Source: an uncultured Flavobacteriaceae bacterium (GTDB lineage: Bacteria; Bacteroidota; Bacteroidia; Flavobacteriales; Flavobacteriaceae). Taken from it: DNA of 64,000 nucleotides. The stretch is taken from assembly GCA_947493535.1 (NCBI GenBank), contig CANLRK010000006.1:62001-126000 (forward strand), given 5' to 3'. The notes under the pieces were generated by a model. It had not been told where the DNA came from and searched no databases. It worked only from the letters and a program-made list of their open reading frames with translations. Positions 36,502 to 50,200 of the stretch are shown piece by piece (position 1 is the stretch's first letter; the number at the start of each line of letters is the position of its first letter). Both the position numbers and the translations under genes were made by a program.

Positions 36502-36524
36502 TGCGGAGAAAGAGGTATTTGAAC
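36502..36524. repeat. Left attachment site (partial tRNA-Ser 3' end)
   Basis: TGCGGAGAAAGAGG at 36502-36515 is identical to 48596-48609, and the next nine bases (TATTTGAAC) differ from the tRNA copy (GATTCGAAC) at two positions. It is the distal remnant made on integration. Confidence 0.85.
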
Positions 36525-36634
36525 TTTTTGGTATTTAACATACCTTGTTTTACAAAAACCCCTAACTGTCAATAAGTTGTTAAAAACCTTAGTGCTAATT
36601 TGTATCGCAATATAGTATTAAAATATAACTTTAC

Positions 36635-36654
36635 TGTCAACTATACTGTCAACT
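36635..36654 (+). repeat. Left integrase arm-type repeat
   Basis: TGTCAACTATA followed by CTGTCAACT: two TGTCAACT units in tandem. The same 20 bases with one change occur at 48534-48553. A single TGTCAAT lies at 36567-36573. Their place just inside both ends and next to the integrase gene suggests arm-type integrase binding. Confidence 0.6.
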
Positions 36655-36665
36655 GATAAAAATAA

Positions 36666-37940
36666 ATGAGAAGTACTTTTAACCTTAAAGAACCTAAGAA
36701 AGATAAAGAATCATTAATCTTGTTTTCCTCATATTTTAAGAATGAAGGGCGAAAATTTGTATATTCTACTGGTGAATACATTCACCCCAATGATTGGGAC
36801 TTTGAAAACAAACAACCTAAAAACCTCAACGGCAGAACTGAAAAAGCTAACAAGCAACGAGGAATTAAAAGACAGTTGGACAGGTATTCAAATTTCTTTT
36901 CTGATATTATACAAAGTTATAAGCTTTCCAATAGAGAAATTATAATATCAGATATTAAAGATGATTTTGATATTGAATTTAAACGAACTAAGTCTATATC
37001 AAGTAAATTTTTTGAAGTATATGATATATTCTTAGCCGAAAAGAAAAATGATTATACAGAAGACGCCAATTCACAAACAACAATTAAACGATATGAGTAT
37101 AATAAAAAGTTGTTGAGTGAATTTCAAACTCATCGAAAGAAGAAACTGCATTTTAATCAAGTTAACAAAGCATTTTATAATTCATTTATAGATTTTTGCG
37201 TAAATCAAAAGAACCATTCCGCTAATACGTTAAGGAGAAATGTAGGTCTCTTTAAGACTTTTTTGTATTGGGCTTTAGAAAATGGGCATACATATAAAAC
37301 AGATTTTCAAAAATTCAAAGCTCCTAAGGCACAACAAACAGATGAAATAGCATTAAGCTTAGTTCAGGTTCAAGAAGTGTTTGAGTTTGACCTAAGTAAT
37401 AATGAGCGTTTAGAAAAAGTAAGAGATTTATTTGTTTTTGGTTGTGCAACAGGAATGCGTTACAGTAACTATTCAAAAGTAGAAAAGAAAGATATACAGA
37501 ATGGCATTATAAAAGTTCGAGATGAAAAGAACAATGATAAATCCTTAGAAGTACCTCTTAATGATTTTTCTAACTATATTCTTAAAAAATATGAATACAA
37601 GCTTCCTAAGTTATCAAATCAGAAGTTTAATGATTATATAAAAGAAGTGTTTGAATTAATAGGGTATGATGAGAATATTAAGAAGACTATTAAAATTGGT
37701 AAAGACCTAATCGAACAAATCAATCCGATGTACGAGCGTATTTCTTCACATACAGCAAGAAGAAGCTTTATCACAATAATGAAAAACAAAAAAATACCTG
37801 ACAAAGTGATAATGAGTTATACAGGACATAAAAGTTTGGAAGTGTTCAATAAATACTACAAACCAAATAATGATGATAGAAAAGATTTTATGCAAACAGT
37901 GTGGAAGTTTGAAGGTGTTCCATTGAAAAAAGCTGAGTAA
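36666..37940 (+). CDS. int: Tyrosine recombinase/integrase
   Basis: Integrase of 424 residues. An Arm DNA-binding-like N-terminus (KDKESLILFSSYFKNEGRKFVYSTGEYIHPNDWDF) is followed by a SAM-like core-binding domain (about residues 110-215) and the catalytic domain. Catalytic residues: Arg265 in GCATGMRYSNY, His362 and Arg365 in SHTARRSF, His388 in YTGHKSLEVF and Tyr397/398. The arm domain probably binds the TGTCAACT repeats close by. It lies next to the left att site and its stop overlaps the start of the next gene (TAATG). Confidence 0.92.
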   Translation: MRSTFNLKEPKKDKESLILFSSYFKNEGRKFVYSTGEYIHPNDWDFENKQPKNLNGRTEKANKQRGIKRQLDRYSNFFSDIIQSYKLSNREIIISDIKDDFDIEFKRTKSISSKFFEVYDIFLAEKKNDYTEDANSQTTIKRYEYNKKLLSEFQTHRKKKLHFNQVNKAFYNSFIDFCVNQKNHSANTLRRNVGLFKTFLYWALENGHTYKTDFQKFKAPKAQQTDEIALSLVQVQEVFEFDLSNNERLEKVRDLFVFGCATGMRYSNYSKVEKKDIQNGIIKVRDEKNNDKSLEVPLNDFSNYILKKYEYKLPKLSNQKFNDYIKEVFELIGYDENIKKTIKIGKDLIEQINPMYERISSHTARRSFITIMKNKKIPDKVIMSYTGHKSLEVFNKYYKPNNDDRKDFMQTVWKFEGVPLKKAE

Positions 37941-39038: not shown

Positions 39039-39064
39039 TAACAAATTGTTAATAAGATTTGTTA
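39039..39064. promoter_or_regulatory. Inverted repeat at the HTH gene start (possible operator)
   Basis: TAACAAAT (39039-39046) and ATTTGTTA (39057-39064) are a perfect 8-bp inverted repeat, spacing 10, reaching the first base of the HTH start codon. This suits binding by a small HTH dimer and autoregulation. Confidence 0.4.
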
Positions 39065-39339
39065 TGAATAATCCATTTGAGACAATCAATGAAAGGTTGT
39101 CAAACATAGAAAACCTACTGTTAGAAATTAAACATAAACCAGTAGAAGAAGAAAAGTCTGAAAATCTTACGGTAAAAGAAACCGCAGAATTTTTAAAGGT
39201 TTCTGAACAGTCTGTACACAACTACATCAAAAAAGGTTTTTTACCTGCTCAAAAAGTTGGTAGAATACTTCTTATCAAAAGACAAGATTTAGAGAATGCT
39301 TTAGCTGAGGTTAAGTCACTTAAATATAAAAGGGCTTAA
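39064..39339 (+). CDS. Helix-turn-helix (MerR/excisionase-like) protein
   Basis: Small DNA-binding protein of 91 residues. An N-terminal coiled-coil-like helix (MNNPFETINERLSNIENLLLEIK) leads into a winged HTH of the MerR/excisionase (DUF3853/HTH_17) type, LTVKETAEFLKVSEQSVHNYIKKGFLPAQKVGRILLIKRQDLENAL. In integrative elements of Bacteroidota such proteins act as excisionases or Rep regulators. I start it at ATG 39064; an earlier in-frame ATG at 39046 adds six residues and would cover the inverted repeat. Confidence 0.82.
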   Translation: MNNPFETINERLSNIENLLLEIKHKPVEEEKSENLTVKETAEFLKVSEQSVHNYIKKGFLPAQKVGRILLIKRQDLENALAEVKSLKYKRA

Positions 39340-39379
39340 CCTCTTTTTGTTCGTATCTAAAAATCTAAAAAATAGTAGT

Positions 39380-40399
39380 ATGTATACATTAGCAGAAAGC
39401 GGGACAAACAAAGCAGGACAAAATCATATAATTGTTAATGGAGAAGGCTCAGACTTAAACAAAATAGAAGCTCTAAAAGGTAGAGCAAAAAGAAAAACAA
39501 TTACACAAATTATGATGTTAAAATTAATTGAGGTAGCACAAGAAAAAGGAGAACCTGAATTAGAAAAGTCCTATTGGAATACGTATTACTGTCAACAAAA
39601 TATATTTACAGCTAACGGACGTTTATATGGTAAGTATTGTAAAAATCGTTTTTGTACTCTTTGTTGTAGTATTCGAAAAGCCGAATTAATAAATAAATAT
39701 TATCCAGTTATGAAAAACTGGGAAGAACCATATTTCCTTACACTAACTGTTAAGGCTTGTAAAGCAGATAAGTTAAAATTATACATAAAAAAGTTTATTC
39801 AAGGTTTTAAAAGAATAACAGAAAAATATAGAAAACGATACCAAAGAGGAAAAGGAAAGTTACTTATAGGGGTGCGGTCATTGGAATGCAATTTCAATCC
39901 AATTAAGAAAACATATAACCCTCATTTTCATATCATAACAAAAGATAAATATACTGCTGAGGTTTTACTCTATGAGTGGCTTAAATTATGGACAACAAAA
40001 TTTACTAACAAAAAAGGGCAAAACATTCAAAAGGTAACCAACTTAGAAAATGGATTAATTGAGATAATTAAATATGGAAGTAAAATTTTTACAGAACCCG
40101 ATTTAAAAAAAAGAGAAAAAGAAACCTCAACAACTTGCATCTATATAAAAGCGTTAGACACTATTTTAACTGCTATGAAGGGAAAAAGAATATTTGATAG
40201 GTTTGGATTTAACTTACCCAAAATAACTAATACACAAAAGAGTAAAACAAAATTATTACTCAACTACAACGAATGGGAGTATAATCTTAAAACATCTGAT
40301 TGGCAGAATGTTACAACAGGTGAGTGTTTAAGCGGATATAACACGCCTTCTCATTTACAAGCTTTACTTGAAAATAACATTGATAATATATCAAACTAG
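39380..40399 (+). CDS. rep: Rolling-circle replication initiator (HUH Rep)
   Basis: Replication protein of 339 residues of the pUB110-like HUH group. Motif 1 is YFLTLTVKA, motif 2 (the HUH) is NPHFHIITKD, and motif 3 with the nucleophilic Tyr is LIEIIKYGSKIF. The N-terminal half carries CKNRFCTLCCSIRK, a Cys cluster often seen before the HUH domain. All catalytic motifs are intact. An upstream TTG-initiated frame at 39347 is not needed. A Rep inside a chromosomal element suggests it can replicate as a circle after excision. Confidence 0.88.
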   Translation: MYTLAESGTNKAGQNHIIVNGEGSDLNKIEALKGRAKRKTITQIMMLKLIEVAQEKGEPELEKSYWNTYYCQQNIFTANGRLYGKYCKNRFCTLCCSIRKAELINKYYPVMKNWEEPYFLTLTVKACKADKLKLYIKKFIQGFKRITEKYRKRYQRGKGKLLIGVRSLECNFNPIKKTYNPHFHIITKDKYTAEVLLYEWLKLWTTKFTNKKGQNIQKVTNLENGLIEIIKYGSKIFTEPDLKKREKETSTTCIYIKALDTILTAMKGKRIFDRFGFNLPKITNTQKSKTKLLLNYNEWEYNLKTSDWQNVTTGECLSGYNTPSHLQALLENNIDNISN

Positions 40400-40506: not shown

Positions 40507-42054
40507 ATGACAAGTATAGACCAAAGAACACAATTACAAAATCAAATATGGAAAATAGCCAACGATGTCCGTGGCTCTGTAGATGGATGGGATTTTAAAC
40601 ACTTCGTTTTAGGGACATTATTTTATCGCTTTATAAGTGAAAATTTTACTGATTACATTGAGGCTGGTGACGATAGTATTGATTATGCAAGTTTACCAGA
40701 TACAGTAATAACACCCGAAATAAAAGAAGATGCCATTAAAACCAAAGGCTATTTTATATATCCAAGTCAGTTATTTGTAAATGTGGTTAAAAATGCAGAT
40801 GATAACGATAATCTAAATACAGATTTAGCAGCTATTTTTACAGCAATAGAAATTTCTGCAAATGGTTATCCGTCAGAAGAGGATATAAAAGGCTTATTCG
40901 CAGATTTTGATACCACCAGTAATCGATTAGGTAATACCGTTACAAATAAAAACAGCCGATTAGCAGACGTTTTAAAAGGTGTTGCAGGTTTAAATTTGGG
41001 TAATTTTCAAGACAATAAAATCGATTTGTTTGGCGATGCCTATGAGTTTCTAATTCATAAATATGCAGCCAATGCAGGTAAGTCTGGAGGTGAATTTTTT
41101 ACACCTACCAACGTGTCGCAATTAATTGCACAATTGGCTATGCACAAGCAAGAGAAAATCAATAAAATCTACGACCCAGCTGCAGGTTCTGGTTCATTAC
41201 TTCTACAAGCTAAAAAACATTTTGATAATCATGTAATTGAAGAAGGTTTCTTTGGGCAAGAAATAAACCATACTACCTATAACTTGGCACGTATGAACAT
41301 GTTTTTGCACAATGTAAACTACGATAAGTTTCATATCGTGTTGGGCGACACCTTAATGAACCCACAATTAGGAGACGATAAGCCTTTTGATGCTATCGTA
41401 TCTAATCCACCCTATTCTATAAAATGGAAAGGTAGTGACGACCCTACGCTAATTAATGACGACCGTTTTGCACCTGCAGGTGTATTAGCACCAAAATCTA
41501 AAGCAGATTTTGCGTTTGTACTACACTCGTTAAGCTATTTATCTAGTAAAGGTAGAGCAGCATTAGTATGTTTCCCTGGTATCTTTTACCGTGGTGGTGC
41601 AGAACAAAAAATTAGAAAGTATTTGGTAGATAACAACTATGTAGAAACCATTATCAATTTAGCACCTAATTTATTTTATGGTACTACTATAGCGGTAACC
41701 TTGTTAGTGCTTTCTAAAAGTAAAACCGACACCAAAACCCAGTTTATTGAGGCTAGTGGCGAAGACTTCTTTAAAAAAGAAACTAACAACAATGTGTTGT
41801 ATGACGACCACATTGAAAAGGTAATGCAATTGTTTGATAGCAAAGAAGATGTAAAACACGTAGCAAAATCTGTAGACAATAGCATAATTGCTAAAAACGA
41901 TTACAACCTTTCTGTGAGTTCTTATGTAGAAGCTAAAGACACCCGCGAAAAAATAGATATAAAAAAGCTGAATATAGAGGTTGCTAAAACAGTTGATAAG
42001 ATAGATAAACTACGTGCCGATATTGATAACATTGTAAAGGAAATTGAAGCATGA
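40507..42054 (+). CDS. hsdM: Type I restriction-modification methyltransferase subunit HsdM
   Basis: Adenine-N6 methyltransferase of a type I system, 515 residues. The SAM site is in [17 protein letters not shown] followed by [16 protein letters not shown], and the catalytic motif is NPPY in [13 protein letters not shown]. The N-terminal helical domain [33 protein letters not shown] is the usual one. The PrrA-type HsdM of the E. coli prr operon sits first in the same order. It is followed by hsdS with a four-base ATGA overlap. Confidence 0.95.
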
Positions 42055-43262
42055 GCAAGTTAGATGAATTATTGGATGAGGTTGATGTGGAATTTCAATC
42101 TTTAAAGAGTGTTTGTAGTGTATTTAAAGGAAAGCAATTGAATAAAACTGAACTTACAGAATTAGGTGAATATCCTGCTTATAACGGCGGAACTAATTAT
42201 TCTGGATTTACAAATAAATTTAATGTTGAAGAAAATACGACCATAATAAGTCAAGGAGGTGCTTCAGCTGGCTATGTTCAGTTTATCAAAAGAAAATTTT
42301 GGGCAAATGCACATTGTTATTATTTAAAACCTAATTTAGATGTAGTTGAAAATAAATATGTTTATTATTTTGTAAAAAATAAGCAGTACAACCTTATGAA
42401 TTTTCAATTTGGTGCAGGTATACCTGCATTAAAATCTGATGTAATTAAGAAACTTCAAATCCCAATCCCTTGTCCAGATAATCCAGAGAAATCACTCAAA
42501 ATCCAAAAAGAAATCGTTCGTATTTTAGATACCTTTACAGAACTTACTACAGAACTTACTACAGAACTTACTACAGAACTTACTGCACGTAAAAAACAAT
42601 ACGAGTATTATCGTGAGCAATTATTAACTTTTGAAGAATCAGAAGTTAAGCACTTACCTATGGGCGATGAAAGTTTAGGCGAATTTATTAGAGGTAAAAG
42701 ATTTGTGAAAACTGATATGATGTCAGAAGGTGTTCCATGTATACACTATGGTGAAATGTATACACATTATGGTACATGGGCAAGCAAAACAAAATCATTT
42801 GTTAGTAAAGAGTTGGTAGAAAGCAAAAAGTTAAGACGAGCATTAAAAGGGGATGTTGTAATTGTAGCAGCGGGTGAAACTATTGAAGATATAGGACAAG
42901 GAACTGCATGGTTAGGCGAAGAAGGTGCTGTTATTCATGATGCTTGTTTTTATTATAAAAGTAATTTAAATCCTAAATATGTTGCTTATTATACAAGAAC
43001 AAGGCAATTTCATGACCAAATAAAAAAACATATCCGCACTGGTAAAATTTCAGCAATTAACTCAGAGGGATTAGGTAAAGCATTAATTCCTATTCCATCG
43101 CCAGAAGAGCAAGAACGCATTGTAAACATCCTTGATAAATTTGATGTATTGACTACATCCATAAGCGAAGGTTTACCTAAAGAAATAGAGCTGAGAAAAA
43201 AGCAATACGAGTATTATAGAAACAAGCTATTAACATTTCCTAAAGAAACTGTAGAAGTATAA
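42051..43262 (+). CDS. hsdS: Type I specificity subunit HsdS with tandem spacer repeats
   Basis: DNA-recognition subunit of 403 residues with two target-recognition domains (about residues 10-155 and 205-370). Conserved regions [14 protein letters not shown] (centre) and [14 protein letters not shown] (C-terminus) follow them. The spacer between the halves carries four exact TTEL repeats (residues 163-178) from 12-bp DNA repeats. This is like EcoR124 (TAEL twice or three times), where repeat number sets the gap in the recognised sequence. The gene overlaps hsdM by four bases and prrC follows after one base. Confidence 0.93.
42537..42584 (+). repeat. Four perfect 12-bp tandem repeats in the HsdS spacer
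   Basis: ACAGAACTTACT repeated four times without change, each unit coding T-E-L-T. In-frame gain or loss would change the spacer by four residues. Perfect identity suggests recent expansion or ongoing slippage. Confidence 0.95.
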
Positions 43263-43263
43263 T

Positions 43264-44457
43264 ATGAGTAAGACTTTAAATAAAATTGCAGAAGAGTTAA
43301 GAGACGCCAATAAAAAAGTACAGTTAATATACGCTTTTAACGGTACAGGTAAAACACGTTTATCACGTAAGTTTAGGTTACTAGTAGACCCAAAAGTTTA
43401 TAGCGAAGAACAGGAAGAAGAACAAGAAGCATCAGGCATTAAAGTAATGTATTATAATGCTTTTACAGAAGATTTGTTTTATTGGGATAATGATTTAGAT
43501 GCTGATACCAACCGTAAGTTGTTAATTCGTCCTAACAATTTTACAGAGTTGGCATTAGGTTTTTTAAAAGACCAAGGTTTAGATGATAATATCGTAAAAA
43601 ACTTTCAACACTTTACAACAGATTCTATAACACCGCTATTCAATGAAGAATATACAACACAAGATAAAGATGGTAAAAATATTGTTGTAAAAGCATATTC
43701 TGAAGTAACATTCTCTGTTACAAGTGGTGACGACCGAAGTGAGAATAATATTAAAATATCAAAAGGAGAAGAAAGTAATTTTATTTGGTGTGTATATTAT
43801 AGTTTAATACAACAGATTGTTGAGCTTTTAAATATTCCAGAACCCGAAGATAGAGCAGACAATAAATTTGATGATTTAGAATATATTTTCATTGACGACC
43901 CAATAAGTTCTTTAGATGAAAATCACTTAATAGAGCTTGCTGTTAATTTAGCTGAATTGATTAGAAAATCAAATGGTATCAAATTTATAATTTCTACACA
44001 TAATCCACTTTTTTATAATGTGCTTTATAATGAGCTTGGTTTAGCTAAGAAAAAGGGTGCTTTTATGTTGAGCAAAAATGAAGATGGTACGTTTAATTTA
44101 GACCCTAAACATGGTGATTCTAACAAAAGCTTTTCATATCATCTGTATTTAAGAGACGTAATAAAAAATGCAATTGACAATAATGAAGTTTCAAAATTTC
44201 ATTTTGTGTTGTTGCGTAATTTGTATGAAAAAACAGCCAACTTTCTAGGTTATAGTAAATGGTCTGAATTATTACCAAATGATAATAGAGAAGGATATAT
44301 AAGTCGTATTATGAATTTTTATAGCCATAGTACGCTATCAAGTGAAGAAGTGAGAGAGCCAACACCACCTGAAAAAGAAATGGTTAATTATTTATTTAAA
44401 TATTTGTTAGATAATTCCAAATTTTTACAAGAAGAAATAGCAATAGAAGAAGCTTAA
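43264..44457 (+). CDS. prrC: PrrC-family anticodon nuclease (ATPase plus ACNase domain)
   Basis: E. coli PrrC cuts tRNA-Lys in its anticodon loop when phage disarms the restriction complex that holds it inactive. This 397-residue protein matches it (396 residues) throughout. The ABC-like ATPase has Walker [27 protein letters not shown], signature-like SKGEES and Walker [13 protein letters not shown]. The region [14 protein letters not shown] corresponds to the PrrC segment linked to tRNA recognition. The nuclease triad is Arg318-x3-Glu322 ([14 protein letters not shown]) and His355 (NFYSHSTLS); E. coli has R320, E324, H356. It sits between hsdS and hsdR as in prrABCD. All catalytic residues are intact. 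Confidence 0.93.
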
Positions 44458-44474: not shown

Positions 44475-47400
44475 ATGAGTCAATACAAAACCATAGCAGA
44501 ATCAAACAATTTCATTGTTTTAGATAACTACAAAAAGTTTTCAGAAGTAAATGAAACACCTTCTGGGTATCAAACAGAAGCAGATTTAGAAAAAGAATTA
44601 GTAAAAGATTTAATAAATCAAGGCTATGAGTATGTAAAACACCTAACCACACCAACAGCTATGTTGGCTAATGTACGTGTACAATTGCAAAATCTAAATG
44701 ATATGCAATTTACAGATAAAGAATGGGCACGTTTTGTAGAAGAATATTTAGACAAACCAAGTGATAACCTTGTTGATAAAACACGTAAACTACACGATAA
44801 TTACATTTACGATTTTGTATTTGATGATGGACATATTCAAAACATTTATTTAGTAGATAAGAACAATATTTCACGCAATAAGGTTCAGGTTATTTCTCAG
44901 TTCGAGCAGAAAGGCACACATGCCAACCGATACGATGTTACAATTTTGGTAAACGGTTTACCTCTAGTACAAATAGAACTAAAAAAGCGAGGTGTTGCTA
45001 TTCGTGAAGCTTTTAATCAAGTACATCGTTATACAAAAGAGAGTTTTAATACAGAAAACTCTTTATTTAAGTACCTGCAAATTTTTGTGATTTCTAACGG
45101 TACAGACAGTCGTTATTTTGCCAATACTGTAAAGCGAAATAAAAACAGCTTCGACTTTACCATGAATTGGGCAGATGTGAAAAACAAGTCAATCAAAGAC
45201 TTAAAAGATTTTACAGTGACATTTTTTCAAAAACAAACACTTTTAAACGTGTTATTAACGTATTCTGTTTTTGATAGTAATGATACGTTATTAGTAATGC
45301 GTCCGTATCAAATTGCAGCAACAGAACGAATTATATGGAAAATTACAAGTTCATATAATGCTAAAAAATGGGCAACTACAGAAGGTGGTGGTTATATATG
45401 GCATACTACAGGTTCTGGTAAAACATTAACAAGTTTTAAAGCAGCACGTTTAGCAGCGACAAAATTAGAGTTTATAGACAAAGTGTTTTTTGTAGTAGAC
45501 CGTAAAGATTTGGATTTTCAAACCATGAAAGAATACCAACGCTTTTCACCAGATAGCGTAAACGGTTCTATAAATACAGCAGCATTAAAAAGAAATTTAG
45601 AAAAAGCCGACAATAAAATTGTGGTTACTACCATTCAAAAGTTAAATAACTTAATGAAAGGTGAAAATGATTTAGATATTTATCAAAAGCAAGTGGTCTT
45701 TATTTTTGATGAAGCACACCGCTCTCAATTTGGAGAAGCTCAAAAGAATTTAAAAAAGAAGTTTAAAAAATACTATCAATTTGGTTTTACAGGAACACCT
45801 ATTTTTCCTGAAAATGCTTTAGGTTCAGAAACTACACAAAGTGTGTTTGGTACAGAATTACATTCTTATGTAATAACAGATGCAATTAGAGATGAAAAAG
45901 TACTAAAGTTTAAAGTAGATTATAACGATGTTCGTCCTAAGTTTAAAGGCATTGAGTCAGAACAAGATTTAAAGAAATTATCGGCAGCAGAAAATAAAAA
46001 AGCCTTATTACATCCTGTACGTATCAAAGAAATTTCAGAATATATTTTAAAACAATATAGGCAAAAAACACACCGTACAAAAGGTAGTAATAGCGGTTTT
46101 AATGCCATGTTTGCAGTAAGTAGTGTAGATGCAGCAAAATGTTATTACGAAGAATTAAACAAGCTTCAAAAAGAAAACGATAAACCTTTAAGAATAGCAA
46201 CTATTTTTTCTTTTGCAGCAAATGAAGCACAAGGAGCAATTGGTGAAATACAAGACGAAACCTTTGAGCCTACAGCTATGGATGTAAGTGCTAAAGAGTT
46301 TTTAACAAAAGCTATTGATGATTATAATGCGGCATTTAAAATGAATTATAGCATCGATAGTAAAGGCTTTCAAGATTATTACCGTGACCTTGCCAAACGT
46401 GTAAAAAACAAAGAAGTAGATTTATTAATTGTAGTAGGGATGTTCTTAACAGGTTTTGATGCACCTACCTTAAATACCTTGTTTGTAGACAAAAATTTGC
46501 GTTATCATGGTTTAATGCAAGCATTCTCACGTACCAACCGTATTTACGATGCTACTAAAACCTTTGGTAATATTGTTACGTTTAGAGATTTAGAACAAGC
46601 AACAATAGATGCAATTACTTTATTTGGTGATAGCAGTACTAAAAATGTAGTATTAGAAAAAAGCTATAAAGAATATTTAGAAGGCTTCACAGATATTGCA
46701 ACAGGTAACGCACGTAGAGGTTATGTTGAAGTGGTAGCAGAATTAAAAGAAAAATTCCCCAATCCTGATGAGATAGAAACAGAAAAGGACAAAAAAGAAT
46801 TTTCTAAACTCTTTGGCGAATATTTACGCGTAGAAAACATATTGCAAAATTATGATGAGTTTAATCATCTGAAAGAACTACAAAGTATTGACCATACAGA
46901 TGAAGAGGCTATAGAAGCATTTAAAGAAGAAAACTTCTTAACAGACGATGATATTGCAAGTATGCAAGCTATTGAAGTACCTGCAGAAAGAACAATACAA
47001 GATTACCGCTCTACTTATAATGATATTCGAGATTGGTTAAGAAGAGAGAAAAAAGGTAATGAAGCAGAAGAATCAGATATTGATTGGGATGATGTGGTTT
47101 TTGAAGTCGATTTATTAAAATCTCAAGAAATAAACTTAGACTACATTTTAGAATTAATTTTTGATAGTAATAAGAAAACCAAGAATAAAGCAGATTTAGT
47201 AGAAGAAATAAGGCGTGTAATTCGTGCAAGTGTAGGCAATAGAGCAAAAGAAAGTTTAGTAGTAGATTTTATCAATGAAACAGATTTAGATAATATAAAA
47301 GAAAAAGCTACGATTATAGATGATTTCTACGCGTATGCCAAAGTAAAACAGAAAAAAGAAGCAGCAGAATTAATTGAAGAAGAGAATTTAAACGAAGAAG

Positions 47401-47585
47401 CGGCAAAACGTTATATTTTGGCATCTTTAAAACGTGAATATGCAAGCGAAAACGGTACGGAATTAAATTCTATTTTACCTAAAATGAGTCCTTTAAACCC
47501 GCAATATTTAACTAAAAAGCAAAGCGTATTTCAAAAGATTGTTTCATTTGTAGAAAAGTTTAAAAGAATTGGTAACGAATTGTAA
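44475..47585 (+). CDS. hsdR: Type I restriction endonuclease subunit HsdR
   Basis: Restriction/translocase subunit of 1036 residues. The N-terminal PD-(D/E)xK nuclease has [14 protein letters not shown] (catalytic E-x-K). The SF2 helicase motor has Walker [17 protein letters not shown] box [13 protein letters not shown], motif III FTGTP and motif VI region [14 protein letters not shown]-terminal helical domain of about 250 residues follows. It is the fourth gene of the hsdM-hsdS-prrC-hsdR operon, 17 bases after prrC. Length and order fit a type IC-like system. Confidence 0.95.
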
Positions 47586-47605: not shown

Positions 47606-48514
47606 ATGCACTTATATAAATACAAAGAAAAAGAATCAATACAAGTTCTTAAAGAGAAACCTTTTAAATTAGAAAAGGAGATACAAGCTCTTTTTGAAAA
47701 TAATTTAAATGAGTTAATGAATTTGCAATTGGTAAAATCAGAGTTCTCTATTAAAAACAAACGCATAGATACTTTAGCTTATGATACACAATCAAATGCA
47801 TTCATTATTATTGAATACAAGAGAAGTAAAAATATAAGTGTAGTAGACCAAGGATTCACATATTTAAGTCTAATGCTTGAAAACAAAGCTGATTTTATTG
47901 TAGAGTATAACGAAACTTTAAAGCAAAACTTAAAACGTACCGATGTAGATTGGAGTCAAACAAGAGTAGTGTTTGTTTCAACAGGATTTACAGATAATCA
48001 AAAGGCAGCAACTAACTTTAAAGATATTGCTATTGAACTTTGGGAAGTTAAGCGTTATGAAAACAATTTAATTAGTGTTAATCAAATAAAGAAAAGTAAA
48101 TCAGCCGAAAGTATTAAGCCTATTACATCAAGTAATACACAATTAGAAGCAGTTACAAAAGAGATAAAAGTATATACAGAAGAAGACCATACCTCTAATA
48201 AATCTGATGATATAGTTGAACTGTATGAAACCTATAGAAGTGCGATAGTTGCTCTTACTGATGATATTGAGATAATTCCCAAAAAGCTCTATATAGCCTT
48301 TAAAAAGGAAAATAGAAATATTGCGTACCTACATTTACAAAAGAAAAACATAAAACTATGGATAAACGCTAAATGGGGTGAAATAGATGAGCCATCTAAC
48401 ATAGCCTACAATGTTTCAAATAAAGGGCATTATGGTTATGGAGATTATGAAATAGATTTAAAAAATGACTCGAAGATTGAATACATCATGAGTTTAATAA
48501 AACAAGTAATTTAA
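47606..48514 (+). CDS. PD-(D/E)xK nuclease-like protein with C-terminal DUF5655
   Basis: Protein of 302 residues. The N-terminal part is a NucS/DUF91-like nuclease fold with the motif IDTLAYDTQSNAFIIIEYKR (Asp55, Glu70, Lys72). The C-terminal part (about 190-302) is DUF5655, with the NIAYLHLQKKNIKLWINAKWGEIDEPSNIAYNVSNKGHYGYGDYEI segment. Genes of this type are often linked to type I systems. It lies 20 bases after hsdR, so it is probably the fifth gene of the operon. It ends just before the right arm-type repeat. Confidence 0.85.
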   Translation: MHLYKYKEKESIQVLKEKPFKLEKEIQALFENNLNELMNLQLVKSEFSIKNKRIDTLAYDTQSNAFIIIEYKRSKNISVVDQGFTYLSLMLENKADFIVEYNETLKQNLKRTDVDWSQTRVVFVSTGFTDNQKAATNFKDIAIELWEVKRYENNLISVNQIKKSKSAESIKPITSSNTQLEAVTKEIKVYTEEDHTSNKSDDIVELYETYRSAIVALTDDIEIIPKKLYIAFKKENRNIAYLHLQKKNIKLWINAKWGEIDEPSNIAYNVSNKGHYGYGDYEIDLKNDSKIEYIMSLIKQVI

Positions 48515-48533
48515 TATCTAAATATAGTTGAAT

Positions 48534-48553
48534 TGTCAACTATATTGTCAACT
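48534..48553 (+). repeat. Right integrase arm-type repeat
   Basis: TGTCAACTATATTGTCAACT, one base different from 36635-36654. It is preceded by TAGTTGA, which makes an inverted repeat with TCAACTA. It lies 42 bases inside the right att site. Confidence 0.6.
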
Positions 48554-48560
48554 ATAAAAC

Positions 48561-48595
48561 AAAACCCTTACGAATCATACGATTGTAAGGGTTTT
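48561..48595 (-). terminator. Element-borne terminator downstream of tRNA-Ser
   Basis: Stem AAAACCCTTAC / GTAAGGGTTTT (48561-48571 and 48585-48595). On the minus strand it follows the tRNA 3' end directly and ends in TTTTGTTTT. It replaces the original terminator, now separated at 36471-36498. Confidence 0.8.
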
Positions 48596-48618
48596 TGCGG
48601 AGAAAGAGGGATTCGAAC
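48596..48618. repeat. Right attachment site in the tRNA-Ser 3' end
   Basis: TGCGGAGAAAGAGG (48596-48609) equals the left copy; the following GATTCGAAC is the T-arm of the tRNA. The repeat covers the acceptor stem 3' strand and most of the T arm. Confidence 0.85.
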
Positions 48619-48682
48619 CCCCGGACCTGTTACAGTCAACAGTTTTCAAGACTGCCGCATTCGACCACTCTGCCATTTCTCC
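48598..48682 (-). tRNA. tRNA-Ser (UGA anticodon)
   Basis: 85-nt class II tRNA on the minus strand. Acceptor stem GGAGAAA / TTTCTCC with discriminator G; anticodon stem and loop CAGTC-TTGAAAA-CTG with anticodon TGA; long variable arm TTGACTGTAACAGG; T arm GGGGGTTCGAATCCCT. CCA is not encoded. It is intact and is the integration target of the element to its left. Confidence 0.93.
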
Positions 48683-48916: not shown

Positions 48917-50200
48917 ATGAATATACCCCATATAGACCTTCCACGTGTCATAATTATTGGTGGTGGATTTGCAGGTTTACATCTTGCTAAAAAAATAAAT
49001 AAAAAGCAATATCAAGTTGTTTTAATAGACAAACACAATTATCACACTTTTCAACCATTATTATATCAAGTTGCTACCTCAGGGTTGGAACCGGACTCCA
49101 TTGCATACCCAATTAGACGCACCTTTAAAAAACAACCAAACTTCCATTTTCGTTTAGCTAAAGTTGAACAAATTCATCAAGACAAACAATATATTGAAAC
49201 CTCTTCCGGACAGCTTAATTATGATATTTTAATTATTGCTACTGGAGCAAAAACTAACTTTTTTGGTTTAGAAAACGTAGAGCAACATGCAATTCCAATG
49301 AAGTCTTTAGTAGAGTCATTGGACCTTAGAAGTAAAATTCTACAAAACTTTGAAAAAGCAATTTATGCAAGTAGCATAAAAGAACAAGAAAAGCTTATGA
49401 ATTTTGTTATAGTTGGTGGTGGTCCAACGGGAGTTGAACTTGCTGGGGCACTAGGAGAACTTAAAAAACAAGTTTTACCTGAGGATTTTCCTGATTTAGA
49501 TATTAGAAAAATGAAAATTCATTTATTAGAAGCCGCCCCAAGAGTTCTTGCGTCAATGAGTCAAGCAGCTTCTAACAAAGCTCACCAGTTTTTAAAAAAA
49601 CTCGATGTACATGTATGGACAAATACTCAAGTAACAAATTTTGATGGAGCCTTAGTTAGTACTAATGGTAAATCTAATTTTTATAGTGATACCCTCATTT
49701 GGGCAGCAGGTGTTAGTGGAGCTCCTATAAAAGGAATCAATGTTAAAGACATTGGCAAAGGAAACAGAATTCTTGTCAACAATTTTAATCAAATAAATAA
49801 CAGTAGTAATATTTATGCAATAGGAGATGTAGCTTTAATGCAAACTGAAAGTACTCCTAAAGGACACCCTATGCTTGGTTCTGTTGCTATGCAACAAGGT
49901 GCACACCTTGCTAAAAATTTAAATAGAATTGCCGCTAATAAAACAATGCTTCCGTTTAAATATAACGATAAAGGAACAATGGCCACGATAGGTAGAAATT
50001 TAGCTGTAGTTGATTTGCAAGGTTTAAAATTTCAAGGATTGTTTGCTTGGTTTGTTTGGATGTTTGTTCACCTTATGCTACTAGTTGGTTTTCGCAACAA
50101 GATTGTAGTTTTTATTAATTGGGCATGGTCTTATATCCGATTTGACAAAGGAACACCTTTAATTGTAAGACCTTATATAAAAAGAAAAAGTCTCAACTAA
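48917..50200 (+). CDS. ndh: NAD(P)/FAD-dependent oxidoreductase, NDH-2-like
   Basis: Type II NADH:quinone oxidoreductase-like flavoprotein, 427 residues, membrane-associated, passing electrons from NADH to quinone without pumping protons. FAD site VIIGGGFAGLHLAKKI at the N-terminus, NAD(P) site IVGGGPTGVELAGALGEL (about residues 165-182), second FAD motif IYAIGDVA. The CQQG-like quinone region reads AMQQGAHLAKNLN. Hydrophobic C-terminal helices FAWFVWMFVHLMLLVGF anchor it. The stop codon lies within the downstream terminator hairpin. Confidence 0.9.
   Translation: MNIPHIDLPRVIIIGGGFAGLHLAKKINKKQYQVVLIDKHNYHTFQPLLYQVATSGLEPDSIAYPIRRTFKKQPNFHFRLAKVEQIHQDKQYIETSSGQLNYDILIIATGAKTNFFGLENVEQHAIPMKSLVESLDLRSKILQNFEKAIYASSIKEQEKLMNFVIVGGGPTGVELAGALGELKKQVLPEDFPDLDIRKMKIHLLEAAPRVLASMSQAASNKAHQFLKKLDVHVWTNTQVTNFDGALVSTNGKSNFYSDTLIWAAGVSGAPIKGINVKDIGKGNRILVNNFNQINNSSNIYAIGDVALMQTESTPKGHPMLGSVAMQQGAHLAKNLNRIAANKTMLPFKYNDKGTMATIGRNLAVVDLQGLKFQGLFAWFVWMFVHLMLLVGFRNKIVVFINWAWSYIRFDKGTPLIVRPYIKRKSLN

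Follow-up and report, generated by a model that had tools for sequence, protein, structure and literature searches.

PrrC is a classic guardian: it punishes phages that disable restriction. In E. coli, this anticodon nuclease lies idle in the EcoprrI complex and cuts tRNA-Lys, 5' of the wobble base, once Stp of phage T4 disarms the system. PrrC is silenced by the restriction-modification (R-M) complex and released by an anti-restriction factor or dTTP. Residues 284-294 of the E. coli protein form the peptide that binds the tRNA-Lys anticodon, and the N-terminal domain (N-domain) includes the 15-residue PrrC box. Excerpts of a 2010 review (PMC3014915) start the nuclease domain at residue 265 of E. 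coli PrrC, give an Arg-Glu-His (R-E-H) set of residues as required for activity, and place orthologues in 19 distantly related bacteria. The length range of PrrC is 341-416 aa, according to excerpts of a further paper (PMC2610378).

We analyzed a PrrC homolog encoded in the window, a 64,000-nucleotide stretch of DNA from an uncultured Flavobacteriaceae bacterium. An earlier note, made from the letters alone, had described a PrrC-type nuclease as the third gene of an R-M operon, and the locus bears this out. The frame is intact on the plus strand, from an ATG at 43264 to a stop codon ending at 44457, and encodes 397 aa. All motifs named in that note are present (FNGTGKT at residues 25-31, a 16-residue stretch at 62-77, and a 14-residue block at 284-297), as are R318-x3-E322 and H355. 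Based on Pfam and NCBIfam matches, the operon reads hsdM, hsdS, prrC, and hsdR, with prrC between hsdS and hsdR in a prrABCD-like order, as had been claimed (Table 1). The hsdM and hsdS genes overlap by 4 bases, a single base separates the hsdS stop from the prrC start, and 17 bases separate the prrC stop from hsdR. The operon is of the EcoR124 (type IC) kind, with an HsdR that carries the EcoR124_C domain. Directly after hsdR, a PDC-S18/DUF5655 gene is found in the window, a Winogradskyella MAG (L001), Tenacibaculum (L002), L013, and L180 (64-80% identical); in L009, this gene sits 1.2 kb past hsdR. Spacer repeats of the TELT type fix the gap within type IC recognition sites. Four perfect 12-bp repeats (TELT) lie at 42536-42583 in hsdS, and L001 has four and L002 three. 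We considered these repeats as an unusual trait but dropped the idea, as they are known in type IC S subunits (excerpts of PMC3874165) and similar repeats occur in many relatives.

Table 1. Features of the element and its R-M operon in the window
Feature	Position	Strand	Evidence or remark
attL, 14-bp exact copy of the tRNA-Ser 3' end (TGCGGAGAAAGAGG)	36502..36515	+	
Tyrosine recombinase (integrase)	36666..37940	+	Pfam PF00589 E 5.9e-15; 61-62% relatives in G015, G036
Element protein, 347 aa	37940..38983	+	No family in Pfam, PADLOC or NCBIfam
HTH_17 protein of the element	39046..39339	+	Pfam PF12728 E 2e-12, scanned from 39064
Rep_1 replication protein of the element	39347..40399	+	Pfam PF01446 E 6e-12
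hsdM, type I modification subunit	40507..42054	+	TIGR00497 649 bits
hsdS, specificity subunit, four TELT repeats	42051..43262	+	Pfam PF01420 E 3.8e-43
prrC, anticodon nuclease	43264..44457	+	PADLOC PDLC02360 E 4.6e-137
prrC residues 1-262, ABC-type NTPase domain, apparent flavobacterial descent	43264..44049	+	
prrC residues 263-397 and stop, tRNA recognition and nuclease domain, apparently exchanged	44050..44457	+	
Predicted tRNA-recognition block, residues 284-293	44113..44142	+	Identical in E. coli B1 PrrC
hsdR with EcoR124_C domain	44475..47585	+	TIGR00348 667 bits; PF12008 E 1e-73
Accessory gene, PADLOC candidate PDC-S18, DUF5655	47606..48514	+	PADLOC E = 6.2e-137
attR, 14-bp repeat at the tRNA-Ser 3' end	48596..48609	+	
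tRNA-Ser(UGA), attachment site of the element	48597..48682	-	ARAGORN

Homology to PrrC spans the whole length of the protein, including the last 100 residues, where the earlier note had looked for a possible refutation. The PADLOC PrrC model covers residues 3-392 (E = 4.6e-137), and Pfam AAA_13 also matches (E = 1.7e-16). NCBIfam gave no family match for the protein, and a sequence search of solved structures returned none at E up to 1. We confirmed by alignment that R318, E322, and H355 correspond to R320, E324, and H356 of the 396-aa protein of E. coli strain B1 (WP_032251799.1, annotated "anticodon nuclease"). These three residues are invariant in an 87-row MAFFT alignment (the window, 80 genome-scan loci, four further loci that include the window a second time, and two proteins from E. 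coli) and in 98 of 98 rows of a later alignment. The predicted tRNA-recognition block at residues 284-293 is identical to residues 286-295 of the B1 protein. By this block, the 98 PrrC rows fall into class A (window-type, 83 rows), class B ("DS--PFSYH", 6 rows: L066, L095, which is E. coli C51, and L162-L165), and class C (other, 9 rows). In the N-domain, the columns of the NTPase motifs (Walker A, signature, Walker B, and H-motif) are conserved, and residues 62-78 form a nearly invariant block, a candidate for the PrrC box. The protein is inside the PrrC length range and has a single Cys. The gene as a whole is under purifying selection, with a dN/dS of 0.05 to 0.16 against four relatives.

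We then turned to predicted structures. The full-length model is of moderate confidence, with a mean pLDDT of 77.7 and a pTM of 0.64, with residues 286-291 and 355-360 below 50, and its NTPase half resembles Rad50/SMC heads (best Z 11.7, rmsd 5.2, 229 aligned). Because the full-length structural comparison probes residues 1-290 only, the C-terminal domain (C-domain) was modeled separately. This 136-residue model (pLDDT 78.6, pTM 0.68) is mostly helical and places R318 and E322 on a helix at 311-328, R348 on a helix at 339-351, and H355 in the following loop. Members of the HEPN superfamily have an R-x4-6-H motif behind helix 3, and the window protein has R348-x6-H355, with R348 present in 93 of 98 rows and H355 in 98. 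In a structural comparison of the C-domain (VIA-align), ranks 1-7 are HEPN-type chains, including what we take to be HepT and SO_3166, at Z 6.3-7.4, which is below the safe mark of the tool, and a Vps28 domain ties at 6.3; the Foldseek match of the C-domain to HEPN was not significant. The HEPN-type top ranks agree with excerpts of PMC3710099, which place PrrC in the HEPN superfamily.

As a kind of system, the PrrC operon is ordinary: it is well formed, conserved, and new only as a member. A genome scan confirmed at least 342 relatives, of which 80 were kept for comparison; hsdR lies downstream in all 80, with hsdS upstream in 79 of them and hsdM in 73. Across 66 complete operons, distances between PrrC proteins track those of HsdR (Spearman 0.64) and HsdM (0.59) more closely than those of HsdS (0.25). 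Matches to PrrC occur in 113 of 72,556 plasmid records and in none of 50,697 phage records. In E. coli, 20 of 5,426 genomes have a match, 6 of them holding most of the gene in class A form, and the class B form of strain C51 is found in 10 E. coli genomes. In the family of the host, 16 of 298 genomes match at E <= 1e-30, with the window's own counted. The kept relatives include many Bacteroidota, the remainder being distributed across several phyla. The earlier note had treated occurrence in a distant phylum as remarkable. This overstated the rarity, given the many Bacteroidota, the existing PADLOC model of PrrC, and orthologues long known, and we dropped phylum as a source of novelty. Other parts of its picture are supported, namely PrrC identity, the prrABCD gene order, R-E-H, a Lys-type block, and a mobile element, with the low dN/dS in its favor.

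We confirmed the mobile element that carries the operon and defined where it attaches: it spans 12.1 kb, encodes an integrase, and sits at the 3' end of tRNA-Ser. The 14-bp repeats bracket the genes for the integrase, the 347-aa protein, the HTH protein, and Rep_1, together with the operon. A genome of the same genus, G003, keeps the tRNA-Ser site without the element: at this locus (L155), similarity to the TauE-like flanking gene (81%) runs out 45 bases short of that tRNA-Ser, and no gene of the element was found in the interval. An NADH-dehydrogenase-like gene at 48917-50200, between tRNA-Ser and the next gene of the window, was not found there in G003. Near both ends of the element, the stretches 36609-36665 and 48508-48564 are similar (74% identical) and contain repeated TGTCAACT motifs; these repeat stretches are perhaps arm-type integrase sites. 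Among 30 genomes searched, integrase relatives of 61-62% were found in G015 and G036. The G015 relative (61%; L153, 3651-17895) has McrC-like, AAA_5, SMC_N, and Eco57I-type methylase genes in the 14 kb after it, and this kind of integrase may therefore carry other defense cargo, the membership of the G015 genes in an element being putative. In L001 and L002, integrase or Rep_1 relatives were not seen in the flanking DNA examined (in L001, hsdM is 115 bases from the contig end).

The PrrC of the window looks like a natural chimera, with a flavobacterial N-part and a C-part from a lineage outside Bacteroidota. Residues 1-262 are 83-86% identical to the four nearest relatives beyond two near-copies (L005, L003, L160, and L004), but residues 263-397 are only 59-61% identical to the same four, even though the C-domain of L005 retains 76-80% to L003, L160, and L004. 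A Sulfurimonas MAG (L016) is 71% identical in the C-domain and 54% in the N-domain. In a 41-row tree of the C-domain, the window joins with L001 and L002 (together the window set) L016 (99/87, starred) and then a Lachnospiraceae MAG (99/97, starred); a Bacteroidota clade (100/97, starred) with 11 flavobacterial-type rows lies apart. For the C-domain, AU tests rejected grouping the window set with the 11 flavobacterial rows (p 0.005) or with the four nearest relatives (p 0.008). For the N-domain, grouping the window set with L016 was rejected with p 0.0015, and again with p 0.0008 on a tree built by a careful method without the long-branched class C rows that the first trees had contained. The A2 rows in the AU-test trees were chosen by a C-domain motif, and their C-domain clustering is therefore no independent evidence; the tests that hold the window set with flavobacterial rows do not depend on this choice. 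By sequence comparison, the nuclease domain has a history other than that of the NTPase domain and hsdR. L016 marks a lineage and not the donor, because its operon is fragmentary and from a MAG.

When L005 and L016 were taken as parents, a maximum chi-square scan placed a break at residues 255-263 (0/2000 permutations), with 83 L005-like and 3 L016-like sites to the left of it and 8 and 23, respectively, to the right. The break fell in the same place with L003 or L160 as the first parent. With L037 as the second parent, the signal was weaker (chi-square 21-28, 0 to 1/2000) and the break lay at 270-343. The break at 255-263 is the border between sensor and nuclease and adjoins residue 265 of E. 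coli PrrC. Over 60-base segments, DNA identity to G273 (L180) and L005 lies at 68-93% in prrC as far as 44043 and at 58-79% between 44043 and 44463. Among the literature matches listed, which cover titles and abstract openings and leave the defining 2006 and 2007 papers outside their scope, there was no report of PrrC domain exchange.

Fast evolution of the nuclease domain, in place of exchange, could also set the halves in conflict, since the C-domain is more variable in general, the best partner, L016, is a fragmentary MAG operon, and the signal with L037 is weaker. However, rate alone would not bring 23 of 31 informative C-domain sites to L016 with 83 of 86 N-domain sites going to L005, and L005 and L160 as test sequences lacked a significant break (391/2000 and 173/2000 permutations). 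DNA identity to G273 and L005 is also back to 83-87% at the start of hsdR (70-95% over the gene). Synonymous divergence of the N-part, the C-part, and hsdR is 0.51, 0.10, and 0.32 against L002 and 0.13, 0.05, and 0.29 against L001. On this evidence, we consider fast evolution unlikely and favor exchange of the C-part; the low synonymous divergence of the C-part hints that this exchange is the younger event.

As to function, the window protein is very probably orthologous to E. coli PrrC, as a latent anticodon nuclease encoded within an hsdMSR operon that is type IC-like. If it acts as in E. coli, it would be kept silent within the R-M complex until a phage product disables that complex, upon which the NTPase domain (residues 1-262) would free the nuclease (263-397) to cut tRNA-Lys, and translation would stop in the infected cell. 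The host genome has 43 tRNA matches, one of them truncated by a contig start (C11:1-68). This truncated match aside, two identical tandem copies of tRNA-Lys(UUU), by eye with a CUUUUAA loop and discriminator A, are the only Lys tRNA reported by ARAGORN at the fetched places, and a single isoacceptor therefore appears to serve both Lys codons. With its exchanged nuclease domain, this PrrC might cut a different tRNA, as orthologue substrates may vary because the recognition sequence varies (excerpts of PMC3014915); the identity of the recognition block to that of E. coli B1 and the UUU anticodon of the host tRNA-Lys make this rather unlikely. A degenerate or repurposed PrrC without nuclease activity is improbable, as such a protein would hardly be expected to keep an intact frame, invariant catalytic residues, and, in comparison with L001 and L002, a dN/dS of 0.05 to 0.15 in both halves. 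Least probable of all is an RloC-like protein whose own Rad50-like part detects DNA breaks without involvement of the R-M enzyme. The NTPase half is indeed similar to Rad50 heads, but the hsd genes adjoin prrC in the scanned relatives, RloC has 658-897 aa (excerpts of PMC2610378) against 397, and the window protein has only one Cys and hence no CXXC hook. We ruled out identity with RloC itself by this size and single Cys, and we retain the reading as a latent PrrC.

Exchange is not confined to the window. Class B PrrC shares the operon kind (type IC) and R-E-H and is 59-66% identical to the window in the N-domain (class A median 61) but only 33-41% in the C-domain (class A median 57, range 44-100), where its block is shortened to "DS--PFSYH". 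In the careful N-domain tree, class B is scattered, with 6 changes, at least 5 of them forced by starred branches, and a single class B clade is rejected (p 5e-6). Class A is one clade (100, starred) in the C-domain tree with class B rows, which was built by the quick method only and has long branches. Judged from these trees, there are further exchanges in relatives, some apparently bringing another recognition block, and exchange recurs. The 298 genomes of the host family hold seven type IC PrrC operons, four of which are class B; the HsdR proteins of these four are 82-85% identical to that of the window. In class C operons (five fetched loci, L175-L179), the order is hsdR, hsdS, prrC, hsdM, with hsdS in L175 and L177 assigned by position only; HsdR and HsdM are distant, and extra genes are present in L177 (one before hsdM) and L179 (two before prrC). 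EcoR124_C is also present in both class C HsdR proteins scanned. Other tRNAs are the predicted targets of classes B and C. In E. coli, the class B protein (L095) is annotated only as an AAA family ATPase.

The interest of this locus thus goes beyond ordinary membership, in that the sensor and nuclease halves have different histories and exchange recurs. If separate histories cut at the sensor/nuclease border are true, the sensing of failure is generic and the tRNase interchangeable. Tentatively, PrrC may be a modular platform, in which a conserved NTPase senses restriction failure and nuclease cartridges are swapped between the domain border and hsdR, with the window as one chimera and sister cartridges cutting another tRNA; this reading is plausible, though we do not yet lean toward it. 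If true, one restriction alarm would fire differing tRNA-cutting warheads. The classes provide a natural matched set, with a like sensor and a different nuclease, for asking which targets PrrC homologues have and whether the change is driven by tRNA repair in phages or by tRNAs of phages. T4 RNA ligase 1 matches occur in 1759 phage records, a figure that says nothing on flavobacterial phages.

Compared with L001 and L002, the window operon has nearly the same PrrC (99% and 92% identical, respectively), HsdM (97% and 92%), and HsdR (97% and 97%), and both relatives share the apparently chimeric PrrC and the fifth gene, whereas their HsdS proteins are only 44% and 41% identical to the window's. 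RloC likewise combines a Rad50-like NTPase with an Arg-Glu-His anticodon nuclease, but it is twice the size of the window PrrC, has a coiled coil and a CXXC zinc hook, and is mostly unlinked to R-M genes (excerpts of PMC2610378). With the E. coli PrrC/EcoprrI system (prrABCD), the window operon shares gene order, R-E-H, the recognition block, and an EcoR124-type HsdR; the proteins have 396 and 397 aa, and E. coli B1 PrrC is 58% identical in the N-domain and 59% in the C-domain. Unlike the E. coli system, the window operon is part of an integrase element in tRNA-Ser and has a fifth gene.
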